Source of the DNA: Ruania zhangjianzhongii
GTDB lineage: Bacteria; Actinomycetota; Actinomycetes; Actinomycetales; Beutenbergiaceae
NCBI RefSeq assembly: GCF_008000995.1
Contig: NZ_CP042828.1
Coordinates: forward strand, 2,966,882-3,030,881
Direction of reading: 5' to 3'
Length of the DNA stretch: 64,000 nt
Of this stretch, positions 57,828-64,000 are shown piece after piece; within the stretch, counting starts at the first letter, position 1, and every line of letters starts with the position of its first letter. Made by a program: the position numbers and the translations under genes. The notes below the pieces were generated by a model that had not been told where the DNA came from, made no database searches, and saw nothing but the letters and a program-made list of their open reading frames with translations.

Positions 57828-58796
57828 TCAGAGCACGCTGAAGGACAGCTCCATCAGGATGGCGGAGAGCAGGGTCAGCTGCGCCAGTGGCGGGTGACCG
57901 ACCGGCTGCGGCCGGTTCAGCACGAACCGCAACTGGTCCCGGGTCTGGTCGGTCACGGCTTCGACCGCCTTCTGCCCGAGCCACTGGCCAGCGCTGGTCA
58001 CCGGACGCGTCCGATTCGCTTCTTGCTGGTTGAGCTGGATGTCGTAGGACCCATGCTTGTCCAGCCGGGCCAGCACCGTACCGTTCGGTGCCTCCACATC
58101 GAAGTGCTTGGCGCGCGCTCCATCGGCCCGGATCGTACCGACGGGGCCGTCCTGGGCATCGACGAACTCGAAGCGCGCAGCGCCGAACACGTTCGCCTGC
58201 TTACCGGTGAAGAGCAGCTCGCCGGCCGGCCCCGTGACGGTGAAGCTGGACTTGATCGGCTTGTAGTGTGCCACCCGGGCGATCAGCCGGCCGGTGGCCG
58301 GATCACCCACCTGCATCGTGGTGGTGCGTTGCTTGCGGGTGAGCTCGTCGATGGAGTCGTTCTCGATGTCCTGCTCCGGCTTGGCCTCCTCGATCGAGTC
58401 GACCACCACGTGGCCCGACGGCGTCGCGTACTGGAGCTGCACCGTCTCACCATGGTCGAACCGCAGGAGGGAGAGGGACGGTTCGCGGAACGGATCGCTG
58501 GTCGCGGAACCGCCTTGTGCTGCCGGTTGCGCGGGCGCGGTGGGTGCGGCCGCCGCGTTCGATTGCCCCGGGTGACCCTGGCCCCCGTACCCCGGCTGCC
58601 CCTGGAACCCCTGCTGCTGTCCCTGGCCCCCGTGGCCCTGGTACCCCTGCTGCTCCTGCTGCTGCGGTGCCTGCGGGAGCGGGTCCACTCCGGTCCCCTG
58701 CGGCCCGGCGACATGCTCGGTCCAGAGCCGGCCGTCCCAGTAGCGGAACTGGTGACGTCGGGCCGGATCTGCATACCAGCCGGGTGAAGGAGTCAT
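57828..58796 (-). CDS. DUF2510 and phospholipid scramblase-like protein
   Basis: A 322-residue protein with an N-terminal DUF2510 motif (GWYADPARRHQFRYWDGRLW, then TEHVAG), a Gln/Gly-rich linker of about 65 residues, and a C-terminal scramblase/LURP1-like domain (FTVTGPAGELLFTGKQANVF, then FDVEAPNGTVLARLDKHGSY). The domain pair is common in actinobacteria. The scramblase name reflects a fold; lipid transport has not been shown. The very C-terminal hydrophobic segment LLSAILMELSFSVL may associate with membranes. Confidence 0.88.
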   Translation of the reverse strand: MTPSPGWYADPARRHQFRYWDGRLWTEHVAGPQGTGVDPLPQAPQQQEQQGYQGHGGQGQQQGFQGQPGYGGQGHPGQSNAAAAPTAPAQPAAQGGSATSDPFREPSLSLLRFDHGETVQLQYATPSGHVVVDSIEEAKPEQDIENDSIDELTRKQRTTTMQVGDPATGRLIARVAHYKPIKSSFTVTGPAGELLFTGKQANVFGAARFEFVDAQDGPVGTIRADGARAKHFDVEAPNGTVLARLDKHGSYDIQLNQQEANRTRPVTSAGQWLGQKAVEAVTDQTRDQLRFVLNRPQPVGHPPLAQLTLLSAILMELSFSVL

Positions 58797-58973
58797 CCCG
58801 TCAACGTAGTGGGCGCGAGGGTCGTTGTCAGTGGGGACTTCTCCCTCTGTGCAGGGGTCGAGCCACCGCGCTCCACAGTGTCCTGGACCACGCTCGCAGG
58901 TACGGAACGAGCCGCTGTGCGTGGTATGTTTACCGACGTTGCGGGCGGCCGTGAGGCTTCCCGCTGCACCCTT

Positions 58974-59059
58974 GTCCGGGTGGCGGAATTGGCAGACGCG
59001 CTAGCTTGAGGTGCTAGTGCCCTTTATCGGGCGTGGGGGTTCAAGTCCCCCCTCGGACA
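58974..59059 (+). tRNA. tRNA-Leu (anticodon GAG)
   Basis: Acceptor GTCCGGG pairs with CTCGGAC (one G-T pair). The anticodon stem CTAGC/GCTAG closes loop TTGAGGT, giving anticodon GAG (reads CUC/CUU). The long variable arm TGCCCTTTATCGGGCGT and T arm GGGGG-TTCAAGT-CCCCC confirm a class II leucine tRNA. CCA is not encoded. Its 3' end is one boundary of the integrated element. Confidence 0.97.
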
Positions 59060-59063
59060 CCGA
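59030..59063 (+). repeat. attL: tRNA-Leu 3' end repeat
   Basis: This 34-base segment covers the T arm and 3' acceptor of tRNA-Leu(GAG) plus four bases beyond. It recurs at 62977-63009 with one C missing, in the same orientation. Confidence 0.85.
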
Positions 59064-59258
59064 ACGACGAAGGCGTCGAGACCATCGGGTAGTGGCTCCC
59101 CCACCACCCAGACACGATCGCTGTGTGTGCGGCGGTTCTCGTCGAGACGCACACTCAGCGAGTTCCACTGGCCGGGGCACAGTTCCTCCCCTGCGGGGTC
59201 GTCGCACCGGTGCAATGACGGCGTGCCGGTCACGGTGACGAGGCCGACGGCCAATGAC

Positions 59259-59293
59259 GAGCCCCCGCCACCGGAGATCGGTGACGGGGGCTC
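59259..59293. terminator. inverted repeat after the surface-protein gene
   Basis: GAGCCCCCGCCACCG and CGGTGACGGGGGCTC are 15-base arms with one mismatch around a five-base loop. It follows the stop of the minus-strand surface-protein gene by 43 bases. No T run follows. Confidence 0.75.
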
Positions 59294-59336
59294 GGTGCGG
59301 CCTCCTGGGCGCTGTCTCACCCTGGAGGTCGGGACA

Positions 59337-62051
59337 TCAGCTCAGGCTGCGCCGCCGTGTGAGGATGACGATAGCGCCTGCTCCCAGGAGCAGGAGCGAG
59401 AGCGTCGCCAGGTTCCCGGCGTCCGAACCCGTCTCCGGGAGGCTTCCGCCGGCGGGACCGGTGGTGTCAACCGCCGTCACCTGGAACATGGCCGACACCT
59501 GGTCGCCCTGCGCGGTGCTCGTCGCGACACCCTCGTGCGAGCCCACCTCGAAGTCGCTAGGAACCGTGAAGGTCCAGCTGACCACGCCGTCCGCATCCGC
59601 CGCCTGAGCGGTGAGCACTATCGGCGTCGAGTGGATCGTCGCGGAGACCATCTCACCCGGGTCGAAGCCCGAGGCGGAGAGGGTCTGCTGTTCACCCTGC
59701 TCGACCGTGTCGAGCTGGAACGACGCCGCCAGCGTGCGCGGCTCCTCCGGCTCGGGGTCCACCGGACCGGGGTCCACCGGACCGGGGTCCACCGGACCGG
59801 GGTCCACCGGACCGGGGTCCACCGGACCGGGGTCCACCGGACCGGGGTCCTCCGGACCCTCGACGATGGCGAGCGGGGTCGTCGCCTCCTGGCCCGTCTC
59901 CTCGTCGACGGCGACGATCGTGTAGCCGTCTCCGACCGCAGCGTCGGCCGGCACGTCCAGCACCGCCTCGAACGTGCCGTCAGCTCCCGCCGGGACCGTC
60001 ACGGGCTCACCGAGCACGTTGCCCTCGGCGTCGGCGAGGTGCAGGGTCACCATGCCGTCCGGTGTGAAGTCCGCACCGGTGACCGTCGTGGTCGCACCCC
60101 CCTCAGCGACCTCGGACGGGTCGGCGGTGATCGACGGCGTGATGGCGGTGAGCACCGTCAGCGGGGCCTGCGCCGGGGTACCCGTCGCGTTGTCGGTCCC
60201 GATGACCGTGTACTCGCCTGGGAGCGTGTCCATCTGGACGATCGCCGGCAGCGCGAAGCTCCCGGCCTCATCGGAGTTGACCACCACGGCACCACCCACG
60301 AGGTTGCCGTCGGCGTCGAAGAGTTCCACCGCCACCGTGCTGTCCGGTGTGTAGCCGGAGCCGACGATCTCGAGGGCGTCACCCGGGAAGACCTCGGAGG
60401 GGTCCACCTCGAGTACCGGGACGATCTCGGCCACGGCGCAGGCGTCCACGCGGACACCCGAGTTCCCCAGGCCGACACGACCCTCGACGCCCGTGAGCAG
60501 CAAGCTCAGTGCCGACACCTCGACCGAGGCGAGGACCTCGGTACCGTCGGACGTCGTGCACGTCGCCATCTCCTGGTGGTTCACCTGCAGGGAGAGGAGG
60601 TCGGTAAGCCCGGTGAACACCGGGGCCAGCCCCTCATCGATCGTCTGCGTGACCAACCCGGTCAAGATGTCGGTGATCAGCAACTCGTACACCGCGGTGC
60701 CCTCGTCACTGATGAGGAAGTCGTAAACCGTGCTGAAGATCGCGGCCACCTGGGGCCCGGCACTGTCGATAGAATTGGCGAGAGTCGAGCACAAGGCGGG
60801 CGCCGTCGGCCCCGAACAGTCGGTCTCGGCCGGCGGGAAGTTCCCAGCCGCCCCATCCCCCAGGCTGATCGGACCCCAGTCGACGTCGATGACGTCGCCG
60901 GGAAGCGGTCCCTGCTGGGACCACTCACAGGTGACGGTCACCGCGTGCACGGACGCCGCGACAGCCGCCGACATGAGCGCTGTCGCTTCCTCCATGATCT
61001 CTTCCACGCCCTCGGCGACCAGCGGGTACGTGGATTCGTCGATGAGTTCGGTGTTCGGCGCCAGACCGTTCAGGCCCGCGTCGTCACCGCCGGCCCACGG
61101 ATCGCTCCCGTCCACCAGGTGCTCGAGGTGGATCTCGACGGACCCCGTCGCGAAGTCGATGGTCACCAGCTGGTCCGCCGAGGTGATCGGTGCCCCCACC
61201 ACCGCGTCCACGATGTCGCCCTGCATGTTCGAGTCGACGCTGCATTCGGGTGCCGAAACACTGCCATTTCCAAGAGCCGCATCGAGTGCGTCCGTGTCAA
61301 AGGTCTGGGCGGTCAGGTCCTCGATGGTCGTGTCGACCTGACCGCCCAGATCGGAGATCTGCGCGGCGGCGTCCTCGATGAGCGGCGAGTGCGCGAAGAG
61401 CGACGCGTCCCCGGCGATGTACTGCCCGGGGCCGGTGCCCCCGCCATCCGGGTCGAGGAAGACACCATCCTCGGCGATCACCTCGGAGCCCATCGCTCCA
61501 AGTTCGAGATCGAGCTCGTCGACGGCGAGGCCGCTCAGCCCGCCGAGGCCGAGCGCGTCGGAGAACGACAGCAGGTCGATCGTCGTCGTGCCCCAGTCGG
61601 CCTCGGCGCTGTCCAGCGAAAGGCCGCCGTCCGGCCCGAGCAGGCCCGACGCCGCGTGCCCGTCCAGCGGCGAGGACGCCTCGCTGATGCTCGACAGCGC
61701 ACCGAGCTGACCGAAGTCCGCGAACTGGTCGATCGGGATCTCGAGGTCACCGAACGACAGGAGCTGGCCGCCGAGCAGGCTGACGTCCAGGGCTGCCTCG
61801 TTCGGGCCCGGGTTGGTCGGGAAGCCCGCTTCCGACTCCGCCGCGCCGAGGAGCTCCTGCTCCATCGTCGAGGACATGAGCACGCTCGCGCCGGCCTCGG
61901 CAGGGTCGTCCGGATAGTCGTCGAGTACCGCGGCGGCTGGGCCGCTCAGACCGGCGACGCCAAGTGCGGCGCCGACAGTGATCGCGACGGGGCGAAGCCA
62001 CCTGGCACGCCGTCGCTGCCGGTGTGGTGGTGGAGACAATTGCGTTCGCAT
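59337..62051 (-). CDS. LPETG-anchored surface protein (choice-of-anchor G-like)
   Basis: A 904-residue exported wall protein. A long signal peptide ends about residue 43 (LGVAGLSGPAAAVLDD). The N-terminal 520 residues form a large domain rich in Leu, Asp and Gly resembling choice-of-anchor G proteins (AALDVSLLGGQLLSFGDLEI). Two Ig-like repeats follow (VLEVDPSEVFPGDALEIVGS and ITADPSEVAEGGATTTVTG). A DPGPV linker leads to a last Ig-like domain. The end has the sortase signal SLPETGSDAG, a hydrophobic helix and RRRS. The adhesin-like role is inferred. GAGGAG lies about 12 bases before the ATG. It is the only cargo gene of the island. Confidence 0.9.
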   Translation of the reverse strand: MRTQLSPPPHRQRRRARWLRPVAITVGAALGVAGLSGPAAAVLDDYPDDPAEAGASVLMSSTMEQELLGAAESEAGFPTNPGPNEAALDVSLLGGQLLSFGDLEIPIDQFADFGQLGALSSISEASSPLDGHAASGLLGPDGGLSLDSAEADWGTTTIDLLSFSDALGLGGLSGLAVDELDLELGAMGSEVIAEDGVFLDPDGGGTGPGQYIAGDASLFAHSPLIEDAAAQISDLGGQVDTTIEDLTAQTFDTDALDAALGNGSVSAPECSVDSNMQGDIVDAVVGAPITSADQLVTIDFATGSVEIHLEHLVDGSDPWAGGDDAGLNGLAPNTELIDESTYPLVAEGVEEIMEEATALMSAAVAASVHAVTVTCEWSQQGPLPGDVIDVDWGPISLGDGAAGNFPPAETDCSGPTAPALCSTLANSIDSAGPQVAAIFSTVYDFLISDEGTAVYELLITDILTGLVTQTIDEGLAPVFTGLTDLLSLQVNHQEMATCTTSDGTEVLASVEVSALSLLLTGVEGRVGLGNSGVRVDACAVAEIVPVLEVDPSEVFPGDALEIVGSGYTPDSTVAVELFDADGNLVGGAVVVNSDEAGSFALPAIVQMDTLPGEYTVIGTDNATGTPAQAPLTVLTAITPSITADPSEVAEGGATTTVTGADFTPDGMVTLHLADAEGNVLGEPVTVPAGADGTFEAVLDVPADAAVGDGYTIVAVDEETGQEATTPLAIVEGPEDPGPVDPGPVDPGPVDPGPVDPGPVDPGPVDPEPEEPRTLAASFQLDTVEQGEQQTLSASGFDPGEMVSATIHSTPIVLTAQAADADGVVSWTFTVPSDFEVGSHEGVATSTAQGDQVSAMFQVTAVDTTGPAGGSLPETGSDAGNLATLSLLLLGAGAIVILTRRRSLS
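59754..59858 (-). repeat. 15-base tandem repeat encoding DPGPV
   Basis: Six identical copies and one variant of ggggtccaccggacc encode six DPGPV units and a degenerate one. They form a stiff Pro-rich spacer between the Ig-like domains of the surface protein. Confidence 0.93.
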
Positions 62052-62127
62052 CAAAGAAGGTCACTCCTCACGGGCGCGCCGCGCTCGCGGCGACAGGGAT
62101 GTTCCTGGGAAAGGCCACATCGGCCCG

Positions 62128-62244
62128 TTAGTCAGCGACCCCCGATCCGATCGACCGCGGTGAAGTCGCCGAGGATCGTCTGAGTCGCCGCGCGAAACGG
62201 CCGCCGTTGCTGGGTTGACCGGTGGCCTTGCGACGGGCAGTCAT
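62128..62244 (-). pseudogene. remnant of a small mobile-element ORF
   Basis: A 38-residue reading frame MTARRKATGQPSNGGRFA followed by Arg/Ser-rich nonsense and a TAA. The first 18 residues resemble the start of small proteins found on actinobacterial mobile elements (KKATGQ.NGGQFA). It begins with ATGA overlapping the stop of the ORF upstream. The rest of the coding region has been lost. Confidence 0.45.
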
Positions 62245-62405
62245 CTGCGCACCCCTAGTGCGATGTCGGCGACTTCGCGGACGCGACCGCCGGTGTCGAC
62301 GGCGCGCTGCACCGCGCCCACGCCAGAGACGTACATCGTCGGGCCGGCTCCGCTGAGGTCGACGAGCACCCGTCCCTCTTCGAGTGTGCTGGCGCCGTCA
62401 ACCAT
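62241..62405 (-). pseudogene. small ORF, probably a truncated mobile-element gene
   Basis: A 54-residue frame, MVDGASTLEEGRVLVDLSGA then GPTMYVSGVGAVQRAVDTGG and VREVADIALGVR. It reads in frame for at least 60 bases further upstream (TYTYTLGHDKLLG) into the broken integrase region, so its true start is lost. I do not recognise a family. It is followed with an ATGA overlap by another small remnant. Confidence 0.4.
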
Positions 62406-62596
62406 TCCCAGCAACTTATCGTGTCCAAGCGTATAAGTATAGGTCGTGCGCCGGTCCGGATCGCTGACGCCACGACATGGCTGTCTGGGTCGTTCGGATC
62501 GATGGGCTCGTACCAGCGGATCTGGTAGAGGGTGCGTCCGGCTGCATCCTGGTATTTGGTGACCGACCCGCGACCGTTTTCACGCTTGCGTTTCAT
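62255..62596 (-). pseudogene. truncated tyrosine integrase (N-terminus only)
   Basis: The first 40 residues (MKRKRENGRGSVTKYQDAAG, then RTLYQIRWYEPIDPNDPD) match the start of actinobacterial tyrosine integrases with an AP2-like arm-binding domain. After about residue 40 the frame is unrelated, Ser/Arg-rich sequence, and neither the core-binding nor the catalytic domain (Arg...HxxR...Tyr) is present. The breakpoint lies near 62473. The ATG overlaps the stop of the excisionase-like gene. Confidence 0.75.
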
Positions 62597-62811
62597 ACGA
62601 CGTCATTGAGCATGAGAATGTCGAGGACATGCCTGCGTGGGGTGAGCTTGCGGTCTCCAAACTCGACGTACTGAATCTGTCCTTCGTCCATCGCCGCGTA
62701 GACCGTTCGACGGTCGACGCCGAGGACGGCCGCAACCTCTCGAGCGGTGAGGGTCCCCTTCGCGGCGGCGACGAGCTCGGGCACGCTCTGGGCCTGGTCG
62801 TTGGTAGTCAT
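62593..62811 (-). CDS. excisionase-like helix-turn-helix protein
   Basis: A 72-residue HTH_17/excisionase-type protein: LTAREVAAVLGVDRRTVYAA followed by MDEGQIQYVEFGDRKLTPRR. It looks intact. Such proteins bind att arms and steer integrase toward excision. The ATG at 62811 is chosen because the longer frame runs across the att repeat. It is directly upstream of the broken integrase (ATGA overlap). Confidence 0.85.
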   Translation of the reverse strand: MTTNDQAQSVPELVAAAKGTLTAREVAAVLGVDRRTVYAAMDEGQIQYVEFGDRKLTPRRHVLDILMLNDVV

Positions 62812-62890
62812 GCCCGGGGTGTGTGCGGGTGGCCGGCGCTTTGACCCGGATGGTGCCGAACTTCCCTGTTCTACTGGCCACCCCTTGGGT

Positions 62891-62910
62891 GGGACCACAA
62901 ATGGGACCAC
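62891..62910. repeat. gggaccac direct repeat, possible Int/Xis arm sites
   Basis: gggaccac occurs at 62891-62898 and 62903-62910, a 12-base period, about 70 bases from attR. Short direct repeats next to att cores are typical of arm-type binding sites; no direct support here. Confidence 0.35.
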
Positions 62911-62976
62911 GGGGGGGTCGGAGACGGTCCGAGGATGTTGGAATCGTTGAGATTCCGGCACTCGGGCGACCCGTTC

Positions 62977-63009
62977 GGCGTGGGGGTTCAAGTCCCCCTC
63001 GGACACCGA
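62977..63009 (+). repeat. attR: second copy of the tRNA-Leu 3' end
   Basis: 33 bases identical to the tRNA-Leu(GAG) 3' end except that a run of six C is five C. The upstream tRNA half is absent, so it is not a tRNA gene. It marks the far end of the island. Confidence 0.85.
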
Positions 63010-63032
63010 TGTGATGTCTCGCGACATCGTGA

Positions 63033-63065
63033 ACGGCTGAACCCCGGTTGTGGGGGTTCAGCCGT
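63033..63065 (+). terminator. 13-bp hairpin, likely original tRNA-Leu terminator
   Basis: ACGGCTGAACCCC and GGGGTTCAGCCGT pair perfectly around a seven-base loop and are followed by TTTGTGG. It stands 24 bases beyond attR. This is where the tRNA's own terminator would be if the island were removed. Confidence 0.7.
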
Positions 63066-63269
63066 TTGTGGTTGGTCGTCGTGGGTGGCGTCGAGGCTGT
63101 GTTCGGTGAGGATCTCGCAGGCCGGCGACCGTGACACGCCCGAAGCGGATCGACGAGTCGGGTCCTTCCTTCCGGCCAGCAACACTCATAGTTCACCCCT
63201 CCGACTCGGCAAGTTCAAGCGCGCTCGGTATCGTCGCCTGGGCCACCCACCCCGCAGGACTGGAGAACC
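63066..63269. other. intergenic region before the GDPD gene
   Basis: About 200 bases with no recognisable gene, repeat or RNA structure. A weak purine-rich ribosome site is seen at the end. Confidence 0.5.
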
Positions 63270-64000
63270 ATGAAGGTCTATGCCCACCGCGGCGCCTCGA
63301 TCGAGCTGCCCGAGAACACCCTCGCCGCGTTCGCACGCGCGATCGAGATCGGTGCGGAAGGAATCGAGCTCGACACCTACCGGGCCAAAGATGGCACCGC
63401 CGTCGTGATCCACGACGACACCCTGGACCGGACGACCAGTGCGAGCGGTCCAGTCAAGGAGCGCACCGCCGTCGAACTCGGCGAAATCGACGCCGGCAAC
63501 GGCGAGAAGGTCCCTTCTCTTCAGGAGGTGCTAGCGCTGGCCGCCGGCAGGGTGCGGGTGAACATCGAGATCAAGGACCCCGAAGCGGTCGACGCGGTCA
63601 TCGAGACGGTCGCGAAGTTCGACAACCTCGACTGGTTCGCTTCTGGCGCACACTGGGATGCGCTCACCGACCTCCGCGAGCGCGTCGGCGCCGAGGTGTT
63701 CCCGCTGTCGCTGGGCATCGCCGAGAACGGCGCGAAGCTGATCGAGCGCTACCGTGACCAGCTCACCGACGACCAGGCCGCGAACGTCAAGACGTACGCG
63801 AGCGACTGGACTGTGGCACTTGAGCGAGCGCTGGCGATCGGCGCGTCCGGGCTGTCGATCTATGAGGTCGGCCTGACGTCCGAGATCATCGCGGCTATCC
63901 ACGCCGCCGGGCTCGAGGTCTGGGTCTGGACGATCAACGACCCTGCCCGTGCGCTGGAGATCGCAGCGATGGGGGCAGATGCCGTCTGCACCGATGCACC
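63270..64000 (+). CDS. glycerophosphodiester phosphodiesterase (C-terminus outside window)
   Basis: The first 243 residues of a GDPD-family phosphodiesterase, which hydrolyses glycerophosphodiesters to glycerol 3-phosphate and an alcohol. It begins MKVYAHRGASIELPENTLAA with the catalytic HRG, followed by AIEIGAEGIELDTYRAKDGT and VVIHDDTLDRTT, which hold the metal and second His ligands (HRG...ELD...HDDTLDRTT). VNIEIKDPEAVDA and VWVWTINDPARALEIAAMGA, then DAVCTD, are also typical. No signal peptide, so it is cytoplasmic. GGAG stands 4 bases before the ATG. Confidence 0.95.
   Translation, partial: MKVYAHRGASIELPENTLAAFARAIEIGAEGIELDTYRAKDGTAVVIHDDTLDRTTSASGPVKERTAVELGEIDAGNGEKVPSLQEVLALAAGRVRVNIEIKDPEAVDAVIETVAKFDNLDWFASGAHWDALTDLRERVGAEVFPLSLGIAENGAKLIERYRDQLTDDQAANVKTYASDWTVALERALAIGASGLSIYEVGLTSEIIAAIHAAGLEVWVWTINDPARALEIAAMGADAVCTDA

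Follow-up and report, generated by a model that had tools for sequence, protein, structure and literature searches.

A small, decayed mobile element is found at the tRNA-Leu(GAG) gene of Ruania zhangjianzhongii, in a stretch of 64,000 nucleotides of contig NZ_CP042828.1 (hereafter the window, to which all positions refer unless a locus is named). Overall, it is likely that a tyrosine-integrase element was inserted at this tRNA gene and decayed, and that the surface protein gene lying between its ends was its cargo. Comparison with relatives shows the insertion and the later decay, and this part of an earlier interpretation made from the letters alone (the sequence-only reading) is well supported by the sites of relatives and by a related relic in Actinotalea caeni. 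Events of this kind are already known and ordinary; here one is caught in a clear state.

The tRNA-Leu(GAG) gene, the integration target, is located at 58974–59061 on the forward strand (ARAGORN; Rfam RF00005, 51.1 bits), and all 88 bases are the same in the congeners G002 and G004. Its 3' end plus two further bases corresponds to the attL core (59030–59063). The second copy of the 3' end, attR, lies downstream of the tRNA at 62977–63009 on the forward strand and lacks one C; it was detected by repeat search, BLAST, and local alignment. The two copies are 3.9–3.95 kb apart. BLAST of the own genome with tRNA-Leu(GAG) returned three matches only: the query tRNA, a further tRNA-Leu gene (81%), and the attR copy (97% over 32 bases). 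The copy has an alignment score of 29; the same 18 kb, shuffled six times, gives no score above 14, which excludes chance. The copy is real, as the sequence-only reading had proposed when it described a 3' end repeated about 3.9 kb downstream with one base missing. As in tRNA-integrated genomic islands, the direct repeat of the tRNA 3' end stands at the far end. ARAGORN also calls a tRNA-Arg(CCG) at 62926–63007. This is a false call, composed of the tRNA 3'-end copy and chance sequence, and is a trap for annotation; at gathering scores, Rfam reports only tRNA-Leu in 58000–64000.

Between the two copies, the order from right to left is an arm-type repeat, xis, an int remnant, a remnant open reading frame (ORF), and the surface protein gene. 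The arm-type direct repeat GGGACCACAAATGGGACCAC (62891–62910), a probable integrase arm site, follows a pattern common to both ends of the A. caeni element. It is the sole full match to this pattern in 58900–63300, and the left arm repeat is missing. The xis gene (62593–62811, reverse strand) is intact and encodes an excisionase-like protein (recombination directionality factor) of 72 aa (TIGR01764 excise, 31.0 bits; cut-off 28.8). The int remnant (62480–62596, reverse strand) starts at 62596 with an ATGA overlap with xis and retains about 39–42 N-terminal codons, without the catalytic domain. It was recognized by pairwise tblastn/blastp to the integrases of A. caeni and genome G274: residues 1–42 match the A. 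caeni integrase remnant (52%), and residues 3–39 match a full 413-aa tyrosine recombinase (46%). The 113-codon frame has no profile match in any library scanned, and its similarity is pairwise only. Since the likeness ends after about 40 residues although the frame continues, the gene was cut by a junction, not by a stop codon. The integrase gene of a tRNA-integrated genomic island is thus present as an N-terminal remnant only, as seen by pairwise comparison. The remnant ORF (62241–62477, reverse strand) overlaps the short frame after it by ATGA and has no homologue in the 395 other sampled genomes of the order, being found in the own genome only among 396. The inner left end of the element (59062–59090) resembles that of the A. 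caeni element with a score of 17 (shuffles at most 9; best of the other 22 genomes 13). GC content at third codon positions is 0.77 for xis, 0.73 for int, and 0.87 for the surface gene, and the neighbouring genes are like the surface gene. Profile and pairwise matches agree here with the sequence-only reading, which had listed an intact excisionase-like gene, an integrase cut off after about 40 residues, remnant ORFs, and one complete wall-anchored protein gene.

Actinomycete integrative and conjugative elements (AICEs) of the pSAM2 type carry FtsK-like transfer and replication genes. None was found among the four island ORFs scanned; because no transfer or replication gene is left, AICE membership cannot be claimed. 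Such genes may have been deleted. The retention of xis and of the arm repeats on the attR side raises the question of whether the element is still alive, being excised in trans by another integrase like a satellite, with xis and att sites intact enough. A precedent is AICE Faln1739, which excises although its int is truncated, according to passages of PMC3218068. However, the window has no left arm repeat and the attR core lacks one base, and continued mobility of this sort is considered very improbable.

Among 297 sampled genomes of the order, the best xis relative outside the own genome is that of A. caeni JCM 30447 (G164), with 49% identity. It begins about 9.2 kb downstream of tRNA-Leu(GAG) and adjoins a copy of the tRNA 3' end (31/32). 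The two elements share the tRNA gene, their orientation, the order, orientation, and overlap of xis and int, arm-type repeats, and a broken int. The repeat GGAGCCACNNATGGAGCCAC is present at both ends of the A. caeni element (L109, 6189 and 15564). Its int breaks off after about 107 residues, next to transposase-like frames, and it seems that an insertion sequence has disrupted it. Unlike the window, 9.6 kb separate its att sites, and it holds metE-like, Lsr2-like, and transposase-like frames (all these names come from reading translations, not from profile search). No match to the surface gene was found in this element.

A second copy of the tRNA 3' end is clear in two of the 24 family genomes and weak in G096 (2.8–18 kb searched in each). 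In G267, an integrase-like gene follows the tRNA directly and is 28% identical to the G274 integrase. These facts indicate that the tRNA-Leu(GAG) site is a recurrent integration target. Full xis-int pairs in other genomes match the xis and the int remnant of the window. More distant xis-int pairs are seen at tRNA-Leu(CAA) in G274 and G232, and near tRNA-Leu(CAG) in G076. The G096 copy, at +5053, scores 19 against at most 15 in shuffles; no xis or int was found in its region at E <= 0.01, and it is a probable decayed relic. In G096 (L191), the hairpin behind the copy, 5.05 kb after the tRNA, looks by eye like the hairpin that comes straight after the tRNA of G001, and by reading, a secreted-looking protein and a regulator-like gene lie between tRNA and copy. 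A decayed att copy 150 bp after the tRNA in G001, plausible by eye, was rejected (score 12, against up to 16 in shuffles). G267 also has a 22-base copy of the tRNA 3' end 259 kb away. In G295, another family member, a 27-base tRNA-Leu 3'-end copy lies on a separate contig (C420:1461–1487, L197) and is possibly another att site. Outside cellular genomes, xis has no match in plasmids or viral contigs and one weak match among phages, in a Microcystis phage; the surface protein likewise has no match in viral contigs.

The flank beyond attR contains a hairpin (63011–63075, forward strand; z −5.1), a probable native terminator of the tRNA that the insert has parted from it. The 65 bp to the right of attR resemble the DNA directly after tRNA-Leu(GAG) in G082 (58 of 67 columns identical) and G257 (47 of 62), two other genera of the same family. 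When the first 150 bp after the tRNA were searched for the hairpin in 24 genomes, G082 scored 47 and G257 31, and the remaining 21 relatives reached 17 at most. From its place right behind this tRNA in G082 and G257, the hairpin is most probably the native downstream flank of the tRNA, moved 3.9 kb by the insert. The next gene, GDPD-like (63270–63998, forward strand), is the chromosomal right flank and is cut by the window end; its name is that of the sequence-only reading, given without a profile scan. Its protein is 88% identical in the congener G004, where GDPD starts 194 bp after the tRNA with no part of the island; the DNA homology between the window and G004 resumes at 63172.

The sequence-only reading asked for an empty site with tRNA, hairpin, and GDPD gene in succession. 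This was found as two halves, tRNA-GDPD in G004 and tRNA-hairpin in G082 and G257, and no examined genome has both. The reading would have been undermined if all relatives carried the same genes here. Left of the tRNA, all seven congeners are syntenic with the window; to the right, none of the seven has the island or the surface gene, G003 and G006 are alike there, and the others differ. The DUF2510 gene left of the tRNA (57828–58796) has no counterpart there in the seven congeners and is a second lineage-specific gene. Beyond the window's right end, additional genes of about 6 kb in total (L070:6942–12880) separate GDPD from an aldo-keto reductase gene; they are not in this interval in G004.

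G004 alone could be explained by a deletion. It might then be supposed that nothing was ever inserted, the second tRNA 3' end being a product of chance or of tRNA gene decay, and that the relatives have lost the genes. The copy score far above shuffles and the direct adjacency of xis and the int N-terminus to the copy speak against this, and the matching layout of the A. caeni relic and the displaced hairpin, directly after the tRNA in G082 and G257, already contradict it. The absence of any insertion is hardly credible.

The gene remaining in the island (59337–62051, reverse strand) is intact and encodes a choice-of-anchor-G surface protein of 904 aa with an LPETG wall anchor. It belongs to NF033766 (choice_anch_G, 123.8 bits; cut-off 45). 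The anchor is supported by TIGR01167 (LPXTG anchor, 18.7 bits; cut-off 15.9), and Pfam PF00746 gives 13.7, below its cut-off of 20. The LPXTG motif, the hydrophobic stretch, and the basic C-terminal tail of sortase-anchored proteins are all present. The host has a sortase gene, and seven of the nine anchor matches read in its genome, including this protein, show LPxTG or LAxTG. A hairpin after the gene (59258–59294, reverse strand), found as an inverted repeat, is a probable terminator (−40.4 kcal/mol for 59250–59305, z −5.3). The N-terminal 540 residues are predicted to fold with a mean pLDDT of 69.7, and this moderate-confidence model has no Foldseek match in PDB at E <= 0.001. An adhesin-like role is a guess predicted from the architecture, and binding would be only the usual expectation for such proteins. 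No paper naming "choice-of-anchor G" was found in a literature search.

The first 540 residues have matches in 40 of the sampled 396 genomes of the order. By far the best is in G284, which belongs to another family (65%). The next matches, at 38–49%, are in other families, followed by a distant group of 26–33% in many families. All eight copies in the own family, one of them in the own genome, fall in this distant group (30–33%). For a tree, 16 rows were taken from 64 listed places: the window, the 13 nearest relatives after omission of G079, and two congeners for the distant group. G079, whose homologue is divided between two frames, was for this reason left out of alignment and tree. The surface protein joins G284 with 100/100 support. 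The tree program warns of long branches; the join is nevertheless safe because the two proteins are 66% identical and no other row exceeds 39%. Differences between the two genes affect 26, 19, and 38% of the codons at positions 1, 2, and 3, respectively, which fits a gene held by selection. The proteins share the N-terminal 540 residues, Ig-like repeats, and the sortase anchor of choice-of-anchor-G proteins; the nearest relative has 1496 aa, and the window protein, with 904 aa, has fewer repeats.

Because the surface gene lies between the att copies and its closest relative is outside the family, it is likely to be cargo of the element. To this extent the sequence-only idea that the element delivered the gene can be upheld; its proposed test of origin, homologues of the surface gene inside intact tRNA-Leu elements, came out negative. 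Several observations weigh against the cargo reading and the insertion behind it. None of the 14 nearest homologue loci (L148–L161, in several families) has a related integrase or xis within the stretches covered. As a probe control, the integrase query matches five of five element loci (one being its own source) and the xis query, a weaker probe, two of five. Since none of these loci has a related integrase, the cargo step is one that we infer. Only L156 among them has a tRNA gene in the stretch covered, a tRNA-Leu(CAG) about 4 kb away. Nor were surface homologues found in plasmid, phage, or viral collections. As to the right flank, 63008–63171 does not align to the congener G004, and a search of the first 150 bp downstream of the tRNA in the other seven congeners did not find the hairpin. 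From these two facts, the right flank itself may be imported; for the congeners, loss of the hairpin or its displacement by other inserts is also possible.

The homologue loci also suggest that the gene has lost a partner. In 12 of the 14, a copper amine oxidase-domain gene comes 120–361 bp behind the surface gene and shares its strand (for example, L148:4133–5563). L156 stops at a contig end, so that 12 of 13 testable loci are positive, L154 being the exception. Two of the 12 partner genes were scanned, and both match PF01179 (E 2e-32 and better). No copper amine oxidase match was found in the distant-group loci, many of which cover only 1.5 kb on each side. This pair of genes exists elsewhere, whereas the partner is missing in the window, with no copper amine oxidase match there and no PF01179 match at E <= 0.001 in the eight genomes of the genus. 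The surface gene may stand alone here either because decay trimmed the left end or because it was captured alone. A literature search for this pair (LPXTG, operon) found nothing.

It can also be considered that the island is real and the surface gene entered separately. In this view, tRNA-Leu(GAG) and the aldo-keto reductase gene would bound a variable interval in which surface genes are gained and lost by recombination of the flanks, and this one would have landed in an already decayed element. G002 and G001 have unrelated anchored surface genes after the same tRNA, with no att copy above shuffles, the surface homologues lie outside elements, and the seven congeners likewise have no DUF2510 gene at this place left of the tRNA. 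However, the surface gene is placed strictly between the left end at 59062–59090 and the int remnant, and no recombination border is visible. Separate entry is judged unlikely, and carriage by the element is preferred.

LPXTG-type genes follow tRNA-Leu(GAG) in three of the eight genomes of the genus, and they are unrelated to one another. In the window genome (G000), it is the choice-of-anchor-G gene, with its anchor at 0.3 kb from the tRNA. G001 has a CshA/DUF7927 gene at 3.8 kb, broken into two ORFs (L073:1060–4742), and G002 a VWA/FctA/DUF7927 gene at 7.1 kb, also broken into two ORFs (L072:1017–8054). The breaks possibly reflect decay or sequencing error, or in G002 two genes. Given 7 to 29 anchor matches above cut-off in each genome, the probability that at least three of eight genomes have an anchor gene within 8 kb by chance is about 0.002, and that of at least two of eight within 5 kb, where two genes qualify, about 0.012; for both figures, the pattern and the distance limits are post hoc, the anchor counts are those among the matches listed, which end near the cut-off, and the congeners are not independent. 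The pattern is a lead only. Hotspots with surface genes are mentioned in passages of PMC3556495. It can be speculated, with considerable doubt, that in this genus the stretch after tRNA-Leu(GAG) is a locus of surface-protein exchange, where a succession of short-lived elements, or their recombining remains, swap unrelated wall-anchored proteins at a single fixed place.

In the preferred reading, a tyrosine-integrase element recombined with the 3' end of tRNA-Leu(GAG), remaking the tRNA at its left end and displacing the native downstream hairpin by 3.9 kb, as comparison shows. Its layout from right to left was attR, arm site, xis, and int. Decay then removed most of int, the arm sites on the left, and almost every other gene, and with most of int gone the element would no longer be moved by its own integrase. 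The surface gene most likely arrived as cargo from a source outside the family and would have been kept through its expression and its anchoring by the host sortase. This resembles tRNA-integrated tyrosine-recombinase islands, with a duplicated tRNA 3' end, xis-int at one end, a cargo gene, and a displaced native flank; it differs from them in that int is reduced to about 40 codons and one probable cargo gene is left.

The island is a clear case of how a surface protein gene can become fixed once an element has decayed. Relatives supply the two halves of the empty site, another genus has a related relic at the same tRNA, and the closest relative of the surface gene is found outside the family. 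If the recurrence of unrelated anchored proteins at one tRNA across a genus holds in more genomes, it would suggest that surface variation in these actinobacteria has a fixed address.

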